Source of the DNA: an uncultured Acetobacteraceae bacterium
Lineage (GTDB): Bacteria; Pseudomonadota; Alphaproteobacteria; Acetobacterales; Acetobacteraceae
Length of the DNA: 64,000 bases
Direction: 5' to 3'
Assembly: GCA_903924985.1 (NCBI GenBank)
Contig: CAIYDT010000117.1
Span: 1-64,000, forward strand
Notes under the pieces: model-generated
Databases searched by the model: none
What the model saw: only the letters and a program-made list of their open reading frames with translations
Told to the model about the DNA's origin: nothing
In this document: piece after piece, positions 7,900 to 62,194 of the stretch
How the letters are laid out: every line of letters starts with the position of its first letter
Position numbering within the stretch: position 1 is the first letter of the stretch
Position numbers and translations under genes: made by a program

Positions 7900-9790
7900 G
7901 CCGTGTGTTGCCGCGGGTGAGGGTCCGGTAGCGGGCCAGCGCCAACAGCGGGAAATACAGCCGGTAACCGTGGTAGCGCAGGTAAAACACACGCGGGAAA
8001 CCAACGGCCGTATACGGATTCTCCTCCCATTCCCCATCGTCACGCTGGGTGCGCGCCAAATACGCGATACCACGCGCGACCGCGGGGTGTTCCGCCTCCC
8101 CGGCCGCCATCAACCCCAGCACCGCCCAGGCCGTCTGGCTCGGCGTCCCTTCCTTGTAGCGGCCGGGTGGCGCGGCGCCGTAGCTTTCTTCGTCCTCACC
8201 CCAACCGCCGTCCTCACGCTGGACGGAAACCAACCAGTCCACCGCCCGCCGCATCATGGGGTCTTCGAATGGGATGCCGGCGGCGTTCAGGGCGCAGAGT
8301 ACCGACCAGGTGCCGTAGATGTAGTTGGTGCCCCAGCGGCCGAACCAGCTACCGTCCGGCTCCTGCTCGCGGCGGAGGAACGCCATGGCGCGCTGCATGA
8401 CGGGCTCCTCGGCGGACATCCCGATCTGCGCGAGGAAGGACACGCAGCGCGCGGTCACGTCGCTGGTGGGCGGGTCCAGCAGAGCGCCGTGATCGGCGAA
8501 GGGGATGTGGTTCAGGTATAAGTGCGTGTTCTCCGGCTCGAACGCGCCCCAGCCGCCGCCCAGCTTGCCGCCGCCGGAGGACTGCATGCCGATAATCCAC
8601 TCCCGAGCGCGCTCGATGGATTCGGCGTGAGCGGGGTTGCCGTTGCGGTGCAACAGCATGCCCACCACGGCGGTGTCGTCCACGTCGGGGTAGTGGGCAT
8701 TTTCGTACTGAAAGGCCCAGCCGCCGGGGCGCAGGTCCGGCCGGCGCACCGCCCAGTCGCCCGCGACATCGGTGATCTGGCGCGCGCGCAGCCAGTCGCA
8801 GGCGGCGTCGGTGGACTCCCCCGCCTCGGCCATCGCGTGCCCCGCCAACCCGGTATCCCAGATCGGGGACAGGCACGGCTGGCAGTAGGCTCGGTCGTCC
8901 TGGATTACCAGCAGCTTGCGCACCGCCTGCCAGGCGATGGCGGCGTCTGTGTGCTCCGGCGCATACCCCAGCGTGTCGAACATCATCACGCTGTTGGCGA
9001 TGGCCGGGTAAATCCCGCCCAGCCCGTCGCCCCCGTTCAGTCTTTCGCGCGTGAAGGCCACGGCCTTGGCCACCGCGCTGTCGGCGGACCGCTTGGGAAA
9101 CCACGGCTGGACCACCCTGAGTACGCTGTCGAGGTGCTTGAAGAACGTGCTCCAGCCGGACTTGTCAGGGCCCTGTATCCAGTCGCGGACCTGCGCCGGC
9201 GGCGTCCGAAACAGCTCCCGGATATGCACGGAATTTGGGTTTCGGGCGGTGGGCCGCTTCGCCATCAGCACCAGCAGCGGCACGATCACCGTGCGCGACC
9301 AGTAGGACACTTTCGACAGATGGAAGGGGAACCACAGCGGCAGATGCATGATTTCCACGGGCATAACCGGCACCGCGTGCCACGGCACCTCCCCAAACAA
9401 CGCCAGCTGCGCCCGCGTGAACACGTTGGTGCGCTCCGCCCCGCCGGCCGCCAGAATGGCCTCCCGCGCGCGCATCATGTGCGGTGCATCGGGCGAATCA
9501 CCGATGGCCTTCAACGCGAAATATGCCTTTACGCTGGCGGAAATGTTGAACGCCCCTTCGTGGAACAACGGCCACCCGCCGTGTGCGCCCTGAATTCCCC
9601 GGAGATAAACGCCAATCTTGGCTTCCAGATCCCCGTCGATGCGGTCGAGGAAGTGCTCCAACAGCACGTATTCGGCTGGGATCGTGGCGTCGGCCTCCAG
9701 CTCGAACACCCAGTGCCCGTCCGGCTTTTGCAAACGCGACAGCGCGGCTTGCGCACGTTCCACGGCCAGGCTGGTGTCAGTATCGAGCAA
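7880..9790 (-). CDS. shc: Squalene-hopene cyclase
   Basis: DVDDTAVVGM (DXDD-type) motif, repeated QW motifs (QEPDGSWFGRWGTNYIYGTW, QREDGGWGEDEESYG); start approximate (TTG ~9790). Confidence 0.95.
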   Translation of the reverse strand: MLDTDTSLAVERAQAALSRLQKPDGHWVFELEADATIPAEYVLLEHFLDRIDGDLEAKIGVYLRGIQGAHGGWPLFHEGAFNISASVKAYFALKAIGDSPDAPHMMRAREAILAAGGAERTNVFTRAQLALFGEVPWHAVPVMPVEIMHLPLWFPFHLSKVSYWSRTVIVPLLVLMAKRPTARNPNSVHIRELFRTPPAQVRDWIQGPDKSGWSTFFKHLDSVLRVVQPWFPKRSADSAVAKAVAFTRERLNGGDGLGGIYPAIANSVMMFDTLGYAPEHTDAAIAWQAVRKLLVIQDDRAYCQPCLSPIWDTGLAGHAMAEAGESTDAACDWLRARQITDVAGDWAVRRPDLRPGGWAFQYENAHYPDVDDTAVVGMLLHRNGNPAHAESIERAREWIIGMQSSGGGKLGGGWGAFEPENTHLYLNHIPFADHGALLDPPTSDVTARCVSFLAQIGMSAEEPVMQRAMAFLRREQEPDGSWFGRWGTNYIYGTWSVLCALNAAGIPFEDPMMRRAVDWLVSVQREDGGWGEDEESYGAAPPGRYKEGTPSQTAWAVLGLMAAGEAEHPAVARGIAYLARTQRDDGEWEENPYTAVGFPRVFYLRYHGYRLYFPLLALARYRTLTRGNTRRVAFGF

Positions 9791-9804: not shown

Positions 9805-11067
9805 TCAGGCGGCGAGAACAGCCTCGGCCGCGGTTCGGCCCGACCTGATCGCACCTTCGATCGTGGCGGGCAACCCGGTTTTGGTCCAATCCCCCGCCAG
9901 CACCAGATTGGGCAGCGCGGTTCGCGCCTCCGGCCGGCGATGCTCCTGCGCCGCGGTGGCGGCGAAGGTGGCGCGTTTTTCCTTTACGACGCGAACAGGC
10001 GGCATTTCCCGGTCCATCTCCACCGGCAGGTTCAGGGCATCGCGTACGTTCAGCCACACCACCGCCGCCAGTGCGTCGGCGGAATCGTCCACCAATTCGT
10101 TGGCAGCGCTCACGGTGACCGAGATGTGGCCCTTTTTGGCGAAGATCCACTCAGCCGTGCCCGACAGCACACCCAGAAAACCGGTCTCGGCCAGCGGCCC
10201 TTCGGGATCGGCCTCGATTTTGTAGTGCAGGTTCAAAATCGCCTCGAATTTGTCGGGGACGGTCAGCGAGGGCAGCAGGTCGGTCGCGACCCAGGGCGGC
10301 ACCGCCATCACGACGGCATCGCCGGGTCCCAGGTCGATTTGCTCGGCGGTGGTCGAGATCGAGGTCACGCGCCCATCGGTGACGCCGATGGCTGTGACGC
10401 GGCTGTTGAACCGCACGTCGGCCCCGCGCTCGCGCAGTTTAGCGACGGCGGGGTCGATCAAAGCCTCCGACAAGCCGTCCGTCGGGAACCGGGGGATGCA
10501 GGCTTTACCGCCCTTCAGCAGCGTTTCCCGCATGACGGCACCTAGCAAACGGGCAAGCCCGGCCTGCGGGCGGGTATTGAGGGCGGCCACCGCCAGGGGC
10601 TCCACCAGGCGCCAATACAGCTTGCCGCGGCGCATGGAATCCGTGACCAGGGTGTCGCCCTTGATTTCGGCGATTTTGCGCATTTTCAGGTAGTCTGACA
10701 GGCGGGTGTCCGGCACGCGCCGGCCCTTGGCCAAAATCCACCAGGGGATGCGTCCGAGGTTGGGTCGCACCCGCCAACGCTCCCCCGATTTGATGTCCAT
10801 GAACGGGAAAACGGGCAGTTTGGGGCCGCCTAACAGGCCGGCAGAGCCTATTTCGTCGATATAAGCAAACGCCGCTTTGTTACCTGTCAGTAGCAGATGA
10901 TTGCCGTTATCGATCCGGATACCCAACTCCCGGTCGAGATAGGACCGGCAGCGGCCGCCAGCAGCGGGGCCGGATTCATGCAGAGTAACCCCGCGACCTG
11001 CAGCGGTCAGCGAAAGCGCGGCCGACAGACCGGCCAATCCGGCGCCGATAACGTGAACGTGGCTCAT
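9805..11067 (-). CDS. hpnE: Hydroxysqualene dehydroxylase HpnE (FAD-dependent)
   Basis: VHVIGAGLAGLSAALSLTAAGRGVTLHE..GGRCRSY..DNGNHLLL..LVLAGDWTKTGLPATIEGAIRSGRTAA; next to shc. Confidence 0.92.
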   Translation of the reverse strand: MSHVHVIGAGLAGLSAALSLTAAGRGVTLHESGPAAGGRCRSYLDRELGIRIDNGNHLLLTGNKAAFAYIDEIGSAGLLGGPKLPVFPFMDIKSGERWRVRPNLGRIPWWILAKGRRVPDTRLSDYLKMRKIAEIKGDTLVTDSMRRGKLYWRLVEPLAVAALNTRPQAGLARLLGAVMRETLLKGGKACIPRFPTDGLSEALIDPAVAKLRERGADVRFNSRVTAIGVTDGRVTSISTTAEQIDLGPGDAVVMAVPPWVATDLLPSLTVPDKFEAILNLHYKIEADPEGPLAETGFLGVLSGTAEWIFAKKGHISVTVSAANELVDDSADALAAVVWLNVRDALNLPVEMDREMPPVRVVKEKRATFAATAAQEHRRPEARTALPNLVLAGDWTKTGLPATIEGAIRSGRTAAEAVLAA

Positions 11068-33347: not shown

Positions 33348-34421
33348 TTACGCAGCCTCCGCTTTCAGGACCAGACGACCGGTGACCTTGCCGTCGCGCA
33401 GACGCATCAGCGCGGCGTCGGCTTCTCGCTGGGGCACGGTTTCGATCGGCAGGGCTTGCAGCTCACCAGCCTGCGCCAGGGCCACCAACTCCCGCAACTC
33501 CTTCGGATTGCCGACGTAGCTGCCCTGCACCGTCAGGGCTCGGATTGCCATGATCGGCAGCGGCAGCATCAGCTCGCCGCCGAACAGCCCGACCTGCACC
33601 AGCTTGCCGCCTTTGCGCAGCGCGGCGAAGGCGAAGCGGGCGGTGGCGGTGCCGTTCACCAGATCGACCACGGCCAGCACGGGGCCGCCGGCGGCCTCGG
33701 TGATGCGGGCGGTCACACCCTCCCCGCTGCCATCGACCACCTTCGTGGCACCGGCCGCGAGGGCGGCGGCGCGCTTTTCGGCGCTGATATCGACGCTGAT
33801 AATGTTCTTGTGCTTCAGGGCCTTCAGCACCGCGATGGCGTTCAGCCCGAGGCCCCCTGCCCCGACCAGCACTATGGCCTCGGACGGGGTGTAACCCGGG
33901 GTCGCCATGGCCTTCTTGATGCCGGAGAAAACCGTGATCCCCGAGCACGCGTAGGTCGCGGCAAGGGCCGGATCCAGCGTGCCGGGATCGACCAAATGTC
34001 GTGGATGCGGCGCCACCACATGCGTGCCGTAGCCGCCGTTCTGGTAGACGCCCAGACTGCGCGCCGCGACGGTGCACATGTTGTCCTCTTCCGCGAGGCA
34101 GGTGGCGCAGGTGCCGCAGCCCAGCCAGGGAAACACGATGCGCAGGTCGCCGACCTTCACGCCCTTGGCGTCGGGGCCGAGCTTCACGACACGCCCGACG
34201 ATCTCGTGCCCCATGGCAAGCGGCAGGGTCACGCCGCGATCCACCAGCGACATCTTCTGGCCACCGCCGATGTCGTAATACCCCTCCCAGATATGCAAAT
34301 CGGAGTGGCAGACGCCGCAATGGGTGACCTCGAGCAGCACCTCGGTCCCCTTCGGCTCCGGTGTGGGGAGTTCGATTTCCTTCAGGGGCTTCCCGTTTTC
34401 GACGACGGCCCAGGCGCGCAT
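33348..34421 (-). CDS. Zinc-dependent alcohol dehydrogenase
   Basis: VTHCGVCHSDLHIWEG, LPLAMGHEIVGRVVKLG, VGAGGLGLNAI. Confidence 0.92.
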   Translation of the reverse strand: MRAWAVVENGKPLKEIELPTPEPKGTEVLLEVTHCGVCHSDLHIWEGYYDIGGGQKMSLVDRGVTLPLAMGHEIVGRVVKLGPDAKGVKVGDLRIVFPWLGCGTCATCLAEEDNMCTVAARSLGVYQNGGYGTHVVAPHPRHLVDPGTLDPALAATYACSGITVFSGIKKAMATPGYTPSEAIVLVGAGGLGLNAIAVLKALKHKNIISVDISAEKRAAALAAGATKVVDGSGEGVTARITEAAGGPVLAVVDLVNGTATARFAFAALRKGGKLVQVGLFGGELMLPLPIMAIRALTVQGSYVGNPKELRELVALAQAGELQALPIETVPQREADAALMRLRDGKVTGRLVLKAEAA

Positions 34422-34537
34422 GATGGTTCTCCGGTGTGCTTGTGCGGGGGTATGGTTAGCGCGTGGGCGCTAATTTGTCAGCCCTCCGCAAAACGCTCGG
34501 CGTCGTCGCCAATCCCGGTGACAATTATTGGCGGCCA

Positions 34538-34960
34538 CTACTCCGCTGGGAGGCGAATGATTTCGGCCAAATTTTGTATCCTCCTTCGGGTCGATGATTT
34601 GATGCCCCAAACAGCACCATGATGGACATGGCCATGATCTGGGTCCCATCCGACCTTTAAGCCCAGCCGACGCAAGGCGCCAACGTTAAGACGGGCCACC
34701 CCTTTGCTTAGACTGTTGACGTAGTGCAAGGCAGGCAACCCATCGGCAATTATCCAGGGTTCAATATCGACCGACATTCCGCCTCCGGTCGATTCCGAAA
34801 AGGCACCACTTGACACTCGCGTCCCGCCGTTGCCATCGGGGACCATTTCGTTCGGCATAATGTGCCGGACCAGGTGGTCGCCATCGTGGATCTCACGATG
34901 ATCATGAGGAACGATCTCGCCAGCCGAATCACGCTCAGGGGGTTGGCGTACGATCGGCAT
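34538..34960 (-). CDS. Hypothetical protein, third gene of TIGR04255-type cassette
   Basis: 140 aa; DGDHLVRHIMPNEMVPDGNGGTRVSSGAFSESTGGGMSVDIE..; 10 bp after preceding gene. Confidence 0.6.
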   Translation of the reverse strand: MPIVRQPPERDSAGEIVPHDHREIHDGDHLVRHIMPNEMVPDGNGGTRVSSGAFSESTGGGMSVDIEPWIIADGLPALHYVNSLSKGVARLNVGALRRLGLKVGWDPDHGHVHHGAVWGIKSSTRRRIQNLAEIIRLPAE

Positions 34961-34970
34961 ATGGGAGCAA

Positions 34971-35414
34971 TTATCCCTTCGCCACCGCCCAAATCAACTC
35001 GGCCAAGTCTCGAAAGTCGGTTGTGACTTCGATCTCCTGTTCATGACCAGAGTCATGGTTTGCGTACCAAACGGAGACCGAATTCGGTTTGGTAACTTCA
35101 ATCTCGAGGTCGGCGCTCCCGGTATGCCATTCGAGTTGCAGGGCACCGTTACCTAATGGAACGATCGCCGGGCTGTTGCCGGTCGGTGGCATGGTATAGG
35201 CCAACAGTTGGAACGCGAACAACGCCGTATCCGGGGATACCGGGCCTGAGCCGCGATCGTCCCAGTTGTCCTGCAAGTCCAGAAGTTGCTCCATCGCTCT
35301 TCGAACTACAGGGACCCAGGTAATCGTCGGCAGCGCCAACTCAGACACGGCTCCGGAAGCCACGGGGGTCATAAGCCGTTCCCCGGGCCAGACAGCACTT
35401 GTATTTGCATTCAT
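34971..35414 (-). CDS. Hypothetical protein, second gene of cassette
   Basis: ~147 aa; MNANTSAVWPGERL..QLLDLQDNWDDRGSGPVSPDTALFAFQLL; ATGA overlap with TIGR04255-like gene. Confidence 0.65.
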   Translation of the reverse strand: MNANTSAVWPGERLMTPVASGAVSELALPTITWVPVVRRAMEQLLDLQDNWDDRGSGPVSPDTALFAFQLLAYTMPPTGNSPAIVPLGNGALQLEWHTGSADLEIEVTKPNSVSVWYANHDSGHEQEIEVTTDFRDLAELIWAVAKG

Positions 35415-36256
35415 TGCTTGCGCCCCCATTTGGTGTGATAAAGCGGTGACGTTATGTCTGCGAAGCTCTTGACCACATATCTTCGTCCGGCCTGTAGGAA
35501 CGCAACGGTTCCAGCGATGCTGGCTGGTTCGGGCGCTCCTCTGACAGTCAGACTCATCTGAATAACTGTTTGTCCGGTCAATAATTTACCAGGCTCCGCG
35601 CTGACGATTAGGCGGCCAAGCGGGCGTTGGTCCTCACTTTTGAGAACATATCGGAACAGCAAGTTGGCATCCTCCGGTAGACCGAGCGATTCGGCGTCCG
35701 GATGGGACAGCAGTGACCCAAACAATTCCGACATTGCGCCGTATGGCAGCTGGCCGTCTGGGACGGGGATCTGATTGACGTAGCAAATCTCGCATTGGTT
35801 CGGCGTAACGACTCCGATTTCATTATCTGTCACGAAGTCTGAAAACTGGGTCAACTTACCCTCGAACTCTGGCAGAATCTGCTCAAACCGCGGATAGGTG
35901 TCGGCATCTTTGACCTTCCGCCAGTTGTGAATGAAGCGGTCCCGTTGGATTTGCAGAACTTTCGTGCGATCGTCATTCAGAAAAAATGATCGCGGCATAC
36001 CCATGAGAACGGATGGCGAGAATGCGAATCCCGGCAACAGGCCGCCAAAAAGAGGTATCGCTTGCCCGAACGTTTCGAAGATTGGCATGATCGAAGGATG
36101 CTCCTCCGTCTGCGGATATGACTGTTCGAAGATGCGCCAAAGGCGGCCGACATATGCCGTTGTGAACTTTTCAAGGCTGTTGAACTGCACTCCTAGCACC
36201 ACTTCCGTGAGCGGAGGGTTCGAAAAATCCGGCAGGTCAATAGGCCGATTCGGCAT
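35411..36256 (-). CDS. TIGR04255-family-like protein
   Basis: MPNRPIDLPDFSNPPLTEVVLGVQFNSLEKFTTAYVGRLWRIFEQSYPQTEEHPSI..; hallmark FxNPPLxEVVLGVQF opening. Confidence 0.75.
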   Translation of the reverse strand: MPNRPIDLPDFSNPPLTEVVLGVQFNSLEKFTTAYVGRLWRIFEQSYPQTEEHPSIMPIFETFGQAIPLFGGLLPGFAFSPSVLMGMPRSFFLNDDRTKVLQIQRDRFIHNWRKVKDADTYPRFEQILPEFEGKLTQFSDFVTDNEIGVVTPNQCEICYVNQIPVPDGQLPYGAMSELFGSLLSHPDAESLGLPEDANLLFRYVLKSEDQRPLGRLIVSAEPGKLLTGQTVIQMSLTVRGAPEPASIAGTVAFLQAGRRYVVKSFADITSPLYHTKWGRKQ

Positions 36257-36316
36257 TCGGGTTCCACGCGTTGTTGTGCTTAAAATGGGCACGAACTGAA
36301 CGGATGTCAAAGCGAA

Positions 36317-57723: not shown

Positions 57724-58662
57724 ATGACCATTACCCGAACCATCATCGACCACCGCCACCCGGAGAAGGCGCATCGCCCGGACAACCCGATCCAGCGGAA
57801 GCCCGCCTGGATCCGGGTCAAGGCGCCCAATCACCCGATCTACCGTGAAACCCGCGAACTGATGCGGACCAACGGGTTGGTGACGGTGTGCGAGGAAGCC
57901 GCCTGCCCCAACATCGGGGAATGCTGGTCGCAGCGGCACGCTACCATGATGATCATGGGGGATACGTGCACGCGGGCTTGCTCGTTCTGCAACGTGCGCA
58001 CGGGGATGCCTTTGGCGCTGGATGCGTCGGAACCCGCGCGTGTGGCAGTTGCGGTTGCGCGACTTGGGCTGCGGCATGTGGTGATTACGTCGGTGGATCG
58101 GGATGATCTGCCGGACGGAGGCGCCGAACACTTCGCGGCCGTGATACGGGCCATTCGTGGAGCGGCGCCGGGGACAACGATCGAGGTCCTGACACCAGAT
58201 TTTCTGCGCAAGACCGGCGGTGGCGACATCGTCGCGGATGCCCGGCCCGACGTGTTCAACCATAATCTGGAGACTGTGCCTCGGCTTTATCCCTCGATCC
58301 GGCCGGGGGCGCGATATTACCAGTCGTTGCGGCTGCTCGATAGCGTGAAGCAGCGCGCGCCGGGGATTTTTACCAAGTCGGGGTTGATGGTTGGGTTGGG
58401 CGAAAGCCGGAGCGAGGTGGCACAGGTGATGGACGATCTGAGGATCGCGGAGGTCGATTTTCTGACGATCGGACAATATCTGCAACCAACCGTGAAACAT
58501 GCCGCCGTCGCCGCGTTCGTCACACCCGAGGAATTCGAGGATTACGCCGCCATGGCGCGCGCCAAAGGGTTCTTGCTGGTCTCGGCGACACCGCTGACCC
58601 GCAGTTCCTACCACGCGGACACCGATTTCGCCGCGTTGGCAGCTGCCAGGAATCGCGCTTAA
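57724..58662 (+). CDS. lipA: Lipoyl synthase
   Basis: [13 protein letters not shown] and [10 protein letters not shown] Fe-S motifs. Confidence 0.97.
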
Positions 58663-59102
58663 TGCCCACGCACGCGGAACGGCAGATCGTTCCCTACAGT
58701 CCGGAACAGCTCTTCGACCTCGTGGCGGATGTAGAGGCGTACCCGAAGTTCCTGCCATGGTGCGTCGGTGCTCGGGTGCGAACAAAAACCGAGCGGGAAT
58801 TGGTGGCGGATTTGACGATCGGGTTCGGACCGTTTCGGGAGTCGTTTACCAGCCGGGTGACGCTGGAGCGGCCACAGCGGGTGAAGGTCCGGTATGAAAA
58901 TGGCCCGTTCCGATATTTGAACAACCAGTGGGAGTTTCTGCCGCATCCCCGTGGGACGGAGCTGGATTTCTTCGTGGATTTCGAATTCAAAAGCCGGATT
59001 TTACAAGCGGCGATCGGGCTGGTTTTCAATGAGGCCGTGCGCCGGATGGTCGGGGCGTTTCATAAGCGGGCACGGGATGTTTATGGGGTGGGCAAAACGT
59101 GA
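58662..59102 (+). CDS. RatA/Coq10-like SRPBCC protein
   Basis: VPYSPEQLFDLVADVEAYPKFLPWCVGARV; 1-bp overlap with lipA. Confidence 0.92.
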   Translation: MPTHAERQIVPYSPEQLFDLVADVEAYPKFLPWCVGARVRTKTERELVADLTIGFGPFRESFTSRVTLERPQRVKVRYENGPFRYLNNQWEFLPHPRGTELDFFVDFEFKSRILQAAIGLVFNEAVRRMVGAFHKRARDVYGVGKT

Positions 59103-59110
59103 CTTTCGGT

Positions 59111-59764
59111 TTACAGGCAATGAACGCTGACCAAAGCGTCTTTAAGCCGCGCCTCAAAAGCAACAAATGATCGCGATACCCTGAGACTGTCCAGGGATTG
59201 ACGTTCCGCAATCGACGAATACAGGAACTGCAGGTCATTAAGCCGTCGCCGCCGTCGGCCCGTTACAATTTGGATTGCGTTCGTCAACACTCTTTTAGGA
59301 TCGGTGAGCCGCTCCGCGCCGTTGGCATCAATCGGCAAGCCAAGATTTTCAGCTGTAGCGCGGGAGCCTAGCGCCTTGGTAACGGCCATTGGATCGGCAA
59401 GCATCCAGGATTCCGTTTCGTGCCGCGGCGTTACCGTCACGCACCTGACCGGCTCCCACCCGCACCGCCGCTGCATGGCCTCACAATAAGCAGCCCCTCG
59501 CGACGGAAGCGATGCTTCAACGCTGCGACCACCCGAGTCAGCGTGGATGAAAACCATGAGAAATGCGTCACGTGCCCTACACGCCTCCTTAGCGACCTGA
59601 TCCACTGGCCCGCGGGAAAGTCTCACGGCGGGCATTTCAGGTATAGTGGCGGCCTGAGCATTATTTCGCAGCACGAGGTCAGTCATAACTCTCGGAATGA
59701 GAGCGTTGAAATAGTGCGCATCCGTCTCCCCCTCATATAGGGCTGCCCACCCAACATAAATCAT
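59111..59764 (-). CDS. DUF4276-like (Toprim-related) protein
   Basis: LYEGETDAHYFNALIPRVM, FLMVFIHADSGGRS, PRHETESWMLADPMAV; ATGA overlap with AAA ATPase. Confidence 0.75.
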   Translation of the reverse strand: MIYVGWAALYEGETDAHYFNALIPRVMTDLVLRNNAQAATIPEMPAVRLSRGPVDQVAKEACRARDAFLMVFIHADSGGRSVEASLPSRGAAYCEAMQRRCGWEPVRCVTVTPRHETESWMLADPMAVTKALGSRATAENLGLPIDANGAERLTDPKRVLTNAIQIVTGRRRRRLNDLQFLYSSIAERQSLDSLRVSRSFVAFEARLKDALVSVHCL

Positions 59765-61092
59765 GCCGCACCATGATTTTGGTGGAGGAGTTTTTCGATT
59801 TCGAATTTCGTCAGATGCTTTTCTGGGTCTATTATATCGCCAATTCGCTTTACACCCGTACGCATACGGGTTTTGATGGACTTCCGGTTTCGCAACGGCT
59901 CAACAACGATGACGTTATCCGCGGCGACGATCTCGGCATCGTTCAGGGATTCCATCACTTGGGGCGAATGGGTGTTAAGCAAAATTTGAAACGAGGGCTC
60001 CGTTGGATCCATCGATATGTAAGCGGAATTTCGCAAAATCTCCACAAGCATGCGAATCCGCCCTTCATGCACACCGTTCTCAGGTTCCTCGAAGCATAAA
60101 GTACCGCGGCGCCGTGGATCATTCAATACAGCGATCAGTGCCAGCAGACGAATGGTCCCGTCCGAAATGACCCTTGAGCTGAAGATTGACCCATCATGAA
60201 ATTCCAAGCTAAAGGAGTAGCGCTTCTGGGACGGTTCGTCCTGGATGATGATCCGGCGCACGCTGGGAATCAACGATGCCAGATCGGCCACAACGTCCGC
60301 CAATACGCCATCCGGCCGCAGATCGGTGGCGGTTTCCTGCCGTTGGTGCGCAAGTACCGCCGCCAGGTTCGACGCATCTGCGTTCATGAGCCGGTCCTCA
60401 AATCGGCCGTTCTCAGCCCGAGCCGCCGTTGGATTGATTTCCAGAAAGCGAATGTTGATCAGGACATCCCGCAGGGCATGAAGGTGGGGAAATTCAGACG
60501 TCGTCATGGTCGACAGTGTTGTACGGGACGCTTCCTTCAACGAAACGCGCCGAGGCGATCCATGCTTATTGTGTCCGTCCTGACGGATCAGAATACCCTC
60601 TCCGTCTGGGCTCTTCTCGATAAAGGAATTGCGACGGTTGGCATATTCGATTTTTATATCGTCGGAAAATTTACCATGATCGGCAATTTTCGCGATGGGG
60701 CGGCAAGTCTCCTCCCTGACGAAAATCCCGACTGGGGTACCGTCTTTGTTTTCAATGAGTGCCAGTGCCAACCTGTAGCGGACACGCTGCCCAGATATCT
60801 TGTACGTTGTTCCGAAATCATCGACGCCATGCGAGCCCAGGAGAACCTCGACCGCAAACGACATGCACTTCGACACTTCGCCACCACTTCGACGAAAAAG
60901 TTCCTCGGGTTCTCCACGGAGCCTTCGCGTAGCTGTCGGAATGTCATGTTGGGCTAAAAGCGACAGAAACCGCAACGCATCGAACAGGTTCGACTTACCG
61001 CTGGCATTGGGTCCGACAATCGCCGTGAACGGCTGAAGGTCGAGGCTGAATCCCTCGAACGTCTTAAACCCGTCGATCTCGATGCGTGTGAT
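59761..61092 (-). CDS. AAA_21-type ATPase (OLD/SMC-like)
   Basis: ITRIEIDGFKTFEGFSLDLQPFTAIVGPNASGKSNLFDALRFL Walker A; DGTIRLLALIAVLNDPRRRGTLCFEEPENGVHEGRI Walker B; LLNTHSPQVME. Confidence 0.92.
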   Translation of the reverse strand: MTRIEIDGFKTFEGFSLDLQPFTAIVGPNASGKSNLFDALRFLSLLAQHDIPTATRRLRGEPEELFRRSGGEVSKCMSFAVEVLLGSHGVDDFGTTYKISGQRVRYRLALALIENKDGTPVGIFVREETCRPIAKIADHGKFSDDIKIEYANRRNSFIEKSPDGEGILIRQDGHNKHGSPRRVSLKEASRTTLSTMTTSEFPHLHALRDVLINIRFLEINPTAARAENGRFEDRLMNADASNLAAVLAHQRQETATDLRPDGVLADVVADLASLIPSVRRIIIQDEPSQKRYSFSLEFHDGSIFSSRVISDGTIRLLALIAVLNDPRRRGTLCFEEPENGVHEGRIRMLVEILRNSAYISMDPTEPSFQILLNTHSPQVMESLNDAEIVAADNVIVVEPLRNRKSIKTRMRTGVKRIGDIIDPEKHLTKFEIEKLLHQNHGAA

Positions 61093-61141
61093 CATGTTCG
61101 CTCCGGTGAGGGACGGAGCATGCGCCCCGCCCCACACTCCA

Positions 61142-62194
61142 TCAACCCGTCTTGAACTGTCCCCCCGGCGTGGACTTTGAAATCGCCATCTCCTCCTCCG
61201 ACATATCCGCCGGAATATCGGCGAACAGCGGCGTGCTCAGGTACCGTTCCCCAGTATCGGGCAGCATGCACAGGATATTCGATCCTTTCGGGGCTTTCGC
61301 CGCCACCTGCAACGCGCCCGCGAACGTGGCGCCGGAGGTGATGCCTACGAAGATCCCCTCCTTCGCCGCCAGTTCCTTGCTGCACCGCAGCGCGTCCGGT
61401 CCGGCCACGCGCACGATCTCACTGATCAGACCGGACGTCACCGCGTCGCCGGTGATTTTCGGGATGAAATCCGGGCTCCAGCCCTGCATCGGGTGCGGTT
61501 TGAACGCCGGATGGGCATGCGCGGGCGTTCCGTCGGCGTTGCGCCCCTGCGGCGAACCGCTGGTCAGCATCGCCGCGTCTTCCGGCTCGCATACCACGAT
61601 CTTGGTCTTCGGCGATTCCACCGCCAGCACCCGCGACACGCCGCGCAAGGTGCCGCCGGTGCCGAAGCCCGTGACCCAGTAATCCAGCGTCGTGTCGGCG
61701 AAGTCGTCGATGATTTCCCGAGCGGTGGTGCGCGAGTGAATATCGGGGTTGGCGTCGTTCTCGAACTGGCGGGTCAGGAACCAGCCGTTGGCCTTCGACA
61801 GCTCCATCGCCTTGTTCACCATGCCCATGCCCCGCTCCGCCGCCGGGGTCAGCACCACCTGGGCGCCGAGGAAACGCATCAGCCGGCGGCGCTCGACGCT
61901 GAAGGTTTCGGCCATGGTGATGACGAGGGGGTAACCCTTCTGGGCGCAGACCATCGCCAGGCCGATGCCGGTGTTGCCGCTGGTGGCCTCGACCACGGTC
62001 ATGCCGGGCTTTAGCTCGCCGGATTTTTCCGCCGCCTCGATCACGCCCAAGGCCAGCCGGTCCTTGACAGAACCAAGCGGATTGAACGCCTCGATTTTAA
62101 CGAATAAATTTACGCCCTCCGGCGCCAATTTGCCAATTTTTACTACCGGCGTATTGCCAATGGTTTCGAGGATATTCGCGTAACGGCGTCCCAT
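61142..62194 (-). CDS. cysK: Cysteine synthase A
   Basis: NILETIGNTPVVKIGKL; GSVKDRLALGVIEAAE; EATSGNTGIGLAMV. Confidence 0.95.
   Translation of the reverse strand: MGRRYANILETIGNTPVVKIGKLAPEGVNLFVKIEAFNPLGSVKDRLALGVIEAAEKSGELKPGMTVVEATSGNTGIGLAMVCAQKGYPLVITMAETFSVERRRLMRFLGAQVVLTPAAERGMGMVNKAMELSKANGWFLTRQFENDANPDIHSRTTAREIIDDFADTTLDYWVTGFGTGGTLRGVSRVLAVESPKTKIVVCEPEDAAMLTSGSPQGRNADGTPAHAHPAFKPHPMQGWSPDFIPKITGDAVTSGLISEIVRVAGPDALRCSKELAAKEGIFVGITSGATFAGALQVAAKAPKGSNILCMLPDTGERYLSTPLFADIPADMSEEEMAISKSTPGGQFKTG

Follow-up and report, generated by a model that had tools for sequence, protein, structure and literature searches.

Systems comparable with the locus analysed here join an ATPase to a small partner protein or to a nuclease. 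In PARIS, two adjacent genes encode an ABC ATPase, AriA, and a small effector, AriB, which is a two-metal Toprim ribonuclease that cuts tRNA (PMC12409363). In the OLD family and in GajA of Gabija, an SMC/ABC-type ATPase and a Toprim nuclease are contained in one polypeptide, and AbiL (AbiLi/AbiLii) and RloAB each consist of two genes, one for an ATPase and one for a small partner. The closest described relative is HEC-01 (Hma-embedded candidate 01), a two-gene candidate defence system of PADLOC-DB 2.0. Some HEC systems have been verified (PMC12409356, PMC12988326), and activity has been reported for HEC-04, HEC-05 and HEC-06 (PMC12111858, PMC11411939, PMC12988326). In the open literature, we found no paper reporting a test of HEC-01 itself and no description of HEC-01 or of MAD3/MAD4.

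Composition and relationships of the gene pair

The window, a stretch of 64,000 nucleotides from an uncultured Acetobacteraceae bacterium, contains two adjacent minus-strand genes. Gene A (59761..61095) encodes a 444-aa AAA_21/ABC ATPase of the SMC/OLD-like type, and gene B (59111..59764) encodes a 217-aa DUF4276 protein that is predicted to be Toprim-like. The presence of this ATPase–DUF4276 pair, first noticed in the initial annotation, is confirmed, as is the ATGA shared by the stop codon of A and the start codon of B (59761..59764, read from 59764 to 59761 on the minus strand), an overlap that points to translational coupling. For A, the gene as originally delimited stood but its start did not: the ATG lies at 61095–61093, 3 nt beyond the earlier end at 61092. 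The N-terminus MxTRIEIDGFK is kept in relatives. All of the motifs named earlier are present at their residues, three of three in A (GPNASGKSN, the Walker A motif, aa 28–36; LCFEEPENGVHE, aa 333–344; NTHSPQVM, aa 374–381) and three of three in B (EGETD, aa 11–15; FIHADSGG, aa 72–79; HETESWMLADP, aa 115–125). A also has the Walker B motif LCFEEPENG and the NTHSP switch motif, and its motifs are the same across the nine copies compared, with the exception of Shinella, which has GPNATGKSN.

The flanking genes are of the housekeeping kind, as first proposed. A ratA-like gene (58662–59102; Polyketide_cyc match) is convergent with the pair, with 8 nt (59103..59110) between its stop codon and that of B, and a cysK-like gene (61142–62194; PALP match) lies on the same strand as A, with 46 nt (61096..61141) from the cysK stop codon to the start of A. 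Read-through transcription from cysK, which precedes A on this strand, could extend into A; promoter and terminator scans at the pair gave no signal above chance. Just before the start of A, the 46-nt gap holds a hairpin, GCTCCG...CGGAGC, which overlaps the likely Shine–Dalgarno sequence GGAG and could restrict how far A is translated from cysK read-through transcripts. The GC content of the pair is 54.6% against a window median of 65.0%, the lowest among all equally long stretches of the window. Another low-GC stretch, at 34300–36300, carries minus-strand ORFs at 34538–34960, 34971–35429 and 35411–36310, none with a Pfam family match at E<=1e-5.

Searches with PADLOC models matched both proteins over their full length, A to HEC-01A (PDLC04184; 6e-143, 475 bits, aa 1–441 of 444 and profile positions 1–461 of 464) and B to HEC-01B (PDLC04209; 2e-71, 238 bits, aa 1–214 of 217). 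In Pfam, A matched AAA_21 with 99 bits. As library models match both proteins in full and the intact unit recurs in other genomes, the pair is not a chance arrangement. Judged by these profile matches, it is a further example of the catalogued kind HEC-01 and not a new system; the initial proposal of a candidate two-gene anti-phage system is supported in kind, for a pair that is already catalogued. The pair differs from HEC-01 as catalogued in that it stands free among housekeeping genes and is not embedded in an Hma system; it is a free-standing occurrence of HEC-01 in freshwater Acetobacteraceae.

The pair had also been related to PARIS, AbiL and OLD systems, and here similarity of design held whereas membership in PARIS or AbiL did not. 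Like PARIS, the locus has two adjacent genes, an AriA-like ABC ATPase upstream and a small protein predicted to be a Toprim-like nuclease, and a PARIS or AbiL member with a diverged effector would share both this gene layout and the matches of A to the AriA (8e-27) and AbiLi (2e-19) profiles of PADLOC. Both matches are, however, weaker than that to HEC-01A, which fits A far better, and in a Pfam profile search B had no match to DUF4435 (PF14491) or RloB (PF13707) at E<1. In profile–profile comparisons (hhalign), B scored 2–10% with DUF4435 and about 1–2% with RloB, against 61–91% over its full length with DUF4276 and <1% with negative controls. B thus has no significant profile similarity to DUF4435, and membership in PARIS or AbiL, largely refuted by these comparisons, is very improbable. 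The assignment of B to DUF4276 itself holds, with the profile–profile result standing beside a Pfam match (PF14103) of 30.7 bits that is barely above the curated cut-off of 30.2. AbiL and RloAB resemble the locus in having two genes for an ATPase and a small partner, but B lacks a match to RloB; OLD and GajA combine an SMC/ABC-type ATPase with a Toprim nuclease, as is predicted for the locus, but join in one polypeptide what are two ORFs and two proteins here. A likeness to MADS is also seen in NCBIfam, where the MAD3 model hits A (1e-35) and the MAD4 model weakly hits B (0.004); at 123.8 and 17.3 bits, these matches nevertheless fall far short of the respective curated cut-offs of 420 and 160 bits, and no further MADS gene adjoins the pair, whose neighbours are ratA and cysK.

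Predicted fold and conserved residues of gene B

The AlphaFold model of B, built from four sequences, has a pLDDT of 88.2 and a pTM of 0.86; a model of A, also from four sequences, reached a pLDDT of 41, and the fold searches used the B model. In this model, a strand at residues 6–9 is followed by E11–G12 and a helix at 13–33, and a central strand at 70–74 is followed by D76. This predicted topology, in which EG follows the first strand and an acidic residue, D76, follows the central one, is Toprim-like. A Foldseek search of the PDB returned no significant match. Among the matches listed, the full-length match with the highest B-normalised TM score was the C-terminal region of an OLD nuclease (6nk8), which resembles the model weakly (TM 0.49 normalised to B and 0.52 to the target; E 0.12). 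A fold search of BFVD likewise gave nothing significant, an RloB-like phage protein reaching a TM of 0.45, and a PDB sequence search found no sequence-related solved structure. The Toprim fold initially proposed for this protein accordingly finds agreement in the predicted topology and a weak structural match; because no PDB match was significant, with a TM of about 0.5 and an E value of 0.12, we regard it as likely and not as proven.

The most conserved residues across 39 divergent B proteins are E11, G12, E118, E151 and E116, and nine close copies share the invariant residues E11, H74, D76, G78, G79, R80, E116 and E118. In the B subfamily, Gly78 takes the place of the second Asp in the classic DxD, and a related protein (L085) has DAD; HxDxGGR instead of DxD appears, from the sequences, to be a signature of the subfamily. 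The conserved acids suggest E11, D76 and E116/E118 as candidate catalytic residues for DUF4276, a widespread domain of unknown function that no paper found in our search of the open literature names.

Co-inheritance and mobility of the pair

DUF4276 is present in 65 of the 399 Pseudomonadota genomes surveyed. An ATPase related to A lies directly upstream, on the same strand, in 29 of the 30 DUF4276 loci fetched from Pseudomonadota, and the remaining locus begins at a contig edge. In relatives where both ends are readable, the gap between the two genes is close to zero or the genes overlap. Within the window's genus, A directly precedes B in all seven intact B copies, as it does in Caulobacter and Shinella, and A is directly upstream in nine of nine intact close copies. 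The two genes thus co-occur well beyond this genome. Identities of A and of B are correlated (r=0.93, nine pairs); since related pairs share history, this reflects co-inheritance and not independent coevolution. The genes for the ATPase and the DUF4276 protein are passed on as one unit and travel jointly.

The distribution is patchy. B occurs in 8 of the 33 species of the window's genus and in 6 of 300 genomes sampled from the family, four of the six belonging to that genus. One match was found on a plasmid, a Shinella megaplasmid, and phage records held one distant match without annotation; a search of viral contigs with close-family patterns found no relative of B. The flanks of ten copies, up to 4 kb per side, have no detectable nucleotide homology to one another. 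The neighbours of the G266 copy, for example, are MmgE/PrpD and enoyl-CoA hydratase genes, and those of the G156 copy are a transglycosylase (SLT) gene and murA, an EPSP_synthase-family gene. For the latter a clean empty site exists: the transglycosylase gene and murA abut, and the pair is absent, in G301, G1062 and the window's own genome, G000. With flanks that lack detectable homology, patchy occurrence and an empty SLT–murA site, the locus is not syntenic in relatives.

At the window site, nucleotide homology to relatives breaks off within the final bases of ratA (59078–59092) and starts again where cysK ends (61138–61141). In G156 the two genes fall on separate contigs, and G301, G303 and G307 showed no ratA–cysK junction. 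As none of the relatives examined was seen to have ratA next to cysK, a simple insertion between them is not demonstrable; of the accessory insertion first envisaged, a mobile, low-GC pair is retained and insertion into a conserved ratA–cysK junction is not. There may be an assembly join at this site, although the pair itself is intact and single-copy. The gene that follows the downstream end of ratA (in G156, G301 and G303) or the stop end of cysK (in G156 and G307) differs by the species examined, and both gene ends look like synteny breakpoints in the genus. At the G304 copy, where an empty site was also sought, homology to the sister genome G306 stops just past the stop codon of one and the same gene, but the G306 contig ends 0.5 kb further on.

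No transposase or recombinase was seen adjoining the copies with identified neighbours, and no convincing terminal repeats were found at the window copy. In G156 (L021), an inverted repeat of roughly 11 nt, GGTAGGGGGGAC / GTCCCCCTACC, lies at the ends of the pair (7985–8012 and 9985–10005), and is probably due to chance because it was not seen at the window copy. One copy, in G099 (L022 8279–9240, contig C22), is decayed, with only the C-terminal part of A and a TAG stop in B, as expected for a dispensable gene; it adjoins a MoxR-like ATPase gene.

The pair therefore moves horizontally as a two-gene cassette of the HEC-01 type, and both its mobility and its co-inheritance are observed. These data also bear on whether A and B might instead form an accessory factor of DNA or RNA repair, or one linked to replication, of the OLD/RecF/SMC kind. 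The N-terminal region of A does match SMC/RecF ATPase heads, and the copies are chromosomal and surrounded by housekeeping genes. Against such a role stand the absence of the pair from the majority of species in the genus and in the family, its low GC content and differing sites, and its rapid divergence (between G000 and G156, B is about 53% identical whereas RatA is 87% identical), and we consider it decidedly improbable. Returning to a mobile defence cassette, a more specific version of this reading would have a bare 2-kb cassette settle precisely in intergenic gaps without a recombinase of its own, with B as a distinct Toprim subfamily in which HxDxGGR replaces DxD and the metal site or substrate possibly differs from that of AriB; we offer this combination as speculation that is unlikely to hold in full.

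Defence-gene context and proposed function

At E<=1e-20, the window contains no further convincing defence gene. Matches to TmtA-like, oxidoreductase and mad3 models were rejected, as these models fit broad enzyme families and mad3 scored in control regions as well. The window copy and its close copies lie among housekeeping genes, outside a defence island. The neighbours of 20 DUF4276 pairs elsewhere matched 74 models at E<=1e-20, and the best 25 of the 74 include KwaA, KwaB, DpdF, PsyrT, a Type I specificity subunit and several PDC models; at the same threshold, control regions matched three models only (PD-Lambda-2 A, PD-Lambda-2 B and mad3). About 7–9 of 116 neighbour proteins matched defence models, compared with 2 of 118 in the controls, which were hand-picked and partly from the same genomes (Fisher p=0.03, using 9). 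Because the named families are the best 25 of 74 and DpdF and PsyrT are possibly the same protein, we take this enrichment around DUF4276 pairs as suggestive.

A further explanation is a selfish addiction module resembling a toxin–antitoxin system, in which A would restrain a toxic nuclease B, loss of the pair would be costly, and phage defence would be secondary or absent. The pair is compact, consists of just two genes and occurs at unrelated sites without an adjoining mobility gene, the Pfam entry for AAA_21 reads 'putative AbiEii toxin, Type IV TA system', and PARIS-type systems and toxin–antitoxin modules overlap in function. By contrast, a large ATPase gene ahead of its partner is how sensor–effector defence systems are laid out, defence genes occur close to other DUF4276 pairs, and one copy, that of G099, has decayed. 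On balance, such a module appears unlikely, though less so than a repair factor.

We thus favour a horizontally moving HEC-01-type cassette in which an ATPase sensor and a Toprim-like nuclease would halt phage growth, a reading that we hold with reasonable though not full confidence; the pair probably serves in anti-phage defence. A, an AriA/OLD-type ABC/SMC-like ATPase, would act as infection sensor and scaffold, and B would be a small metal-dependent Toprim-like nuclease using the acids E11, D76 and E116/E118. Translated in a coupled manner with A, B would stay bound to A until infection triggers A; B would then be activated or released and would cut cellular or phage nucleic acid (RNA or DNA), which would stop phage growth in the way that AriB does in PARIS. 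The sensing of infection by A and the cutting of nucleic acid by B are proposed by analogy with tRNA cutting by AriB, and we likewise infer the formation of a complex, the trigger, the target and defence itself. Weighed against this proposal are the weak Toprim match, Gly78 in place of Asp, the lack of a sequence-related structure and the housekeeping surroundings. Should HEC-01 turn out to act in defence, DUF4276 would stand beside DUF4435 and RloB among the small effectors that ABC ATPases control.

A second HEC-01 pair in this genome belongs to a different subgroup and adjoins ilvC (contig C261, 4217–6099; L024). Its A protein matches PDLC04182 (2e-184) and its B protein matches PDLC04205 (7e-88), and this second B keeps the classic DTD.
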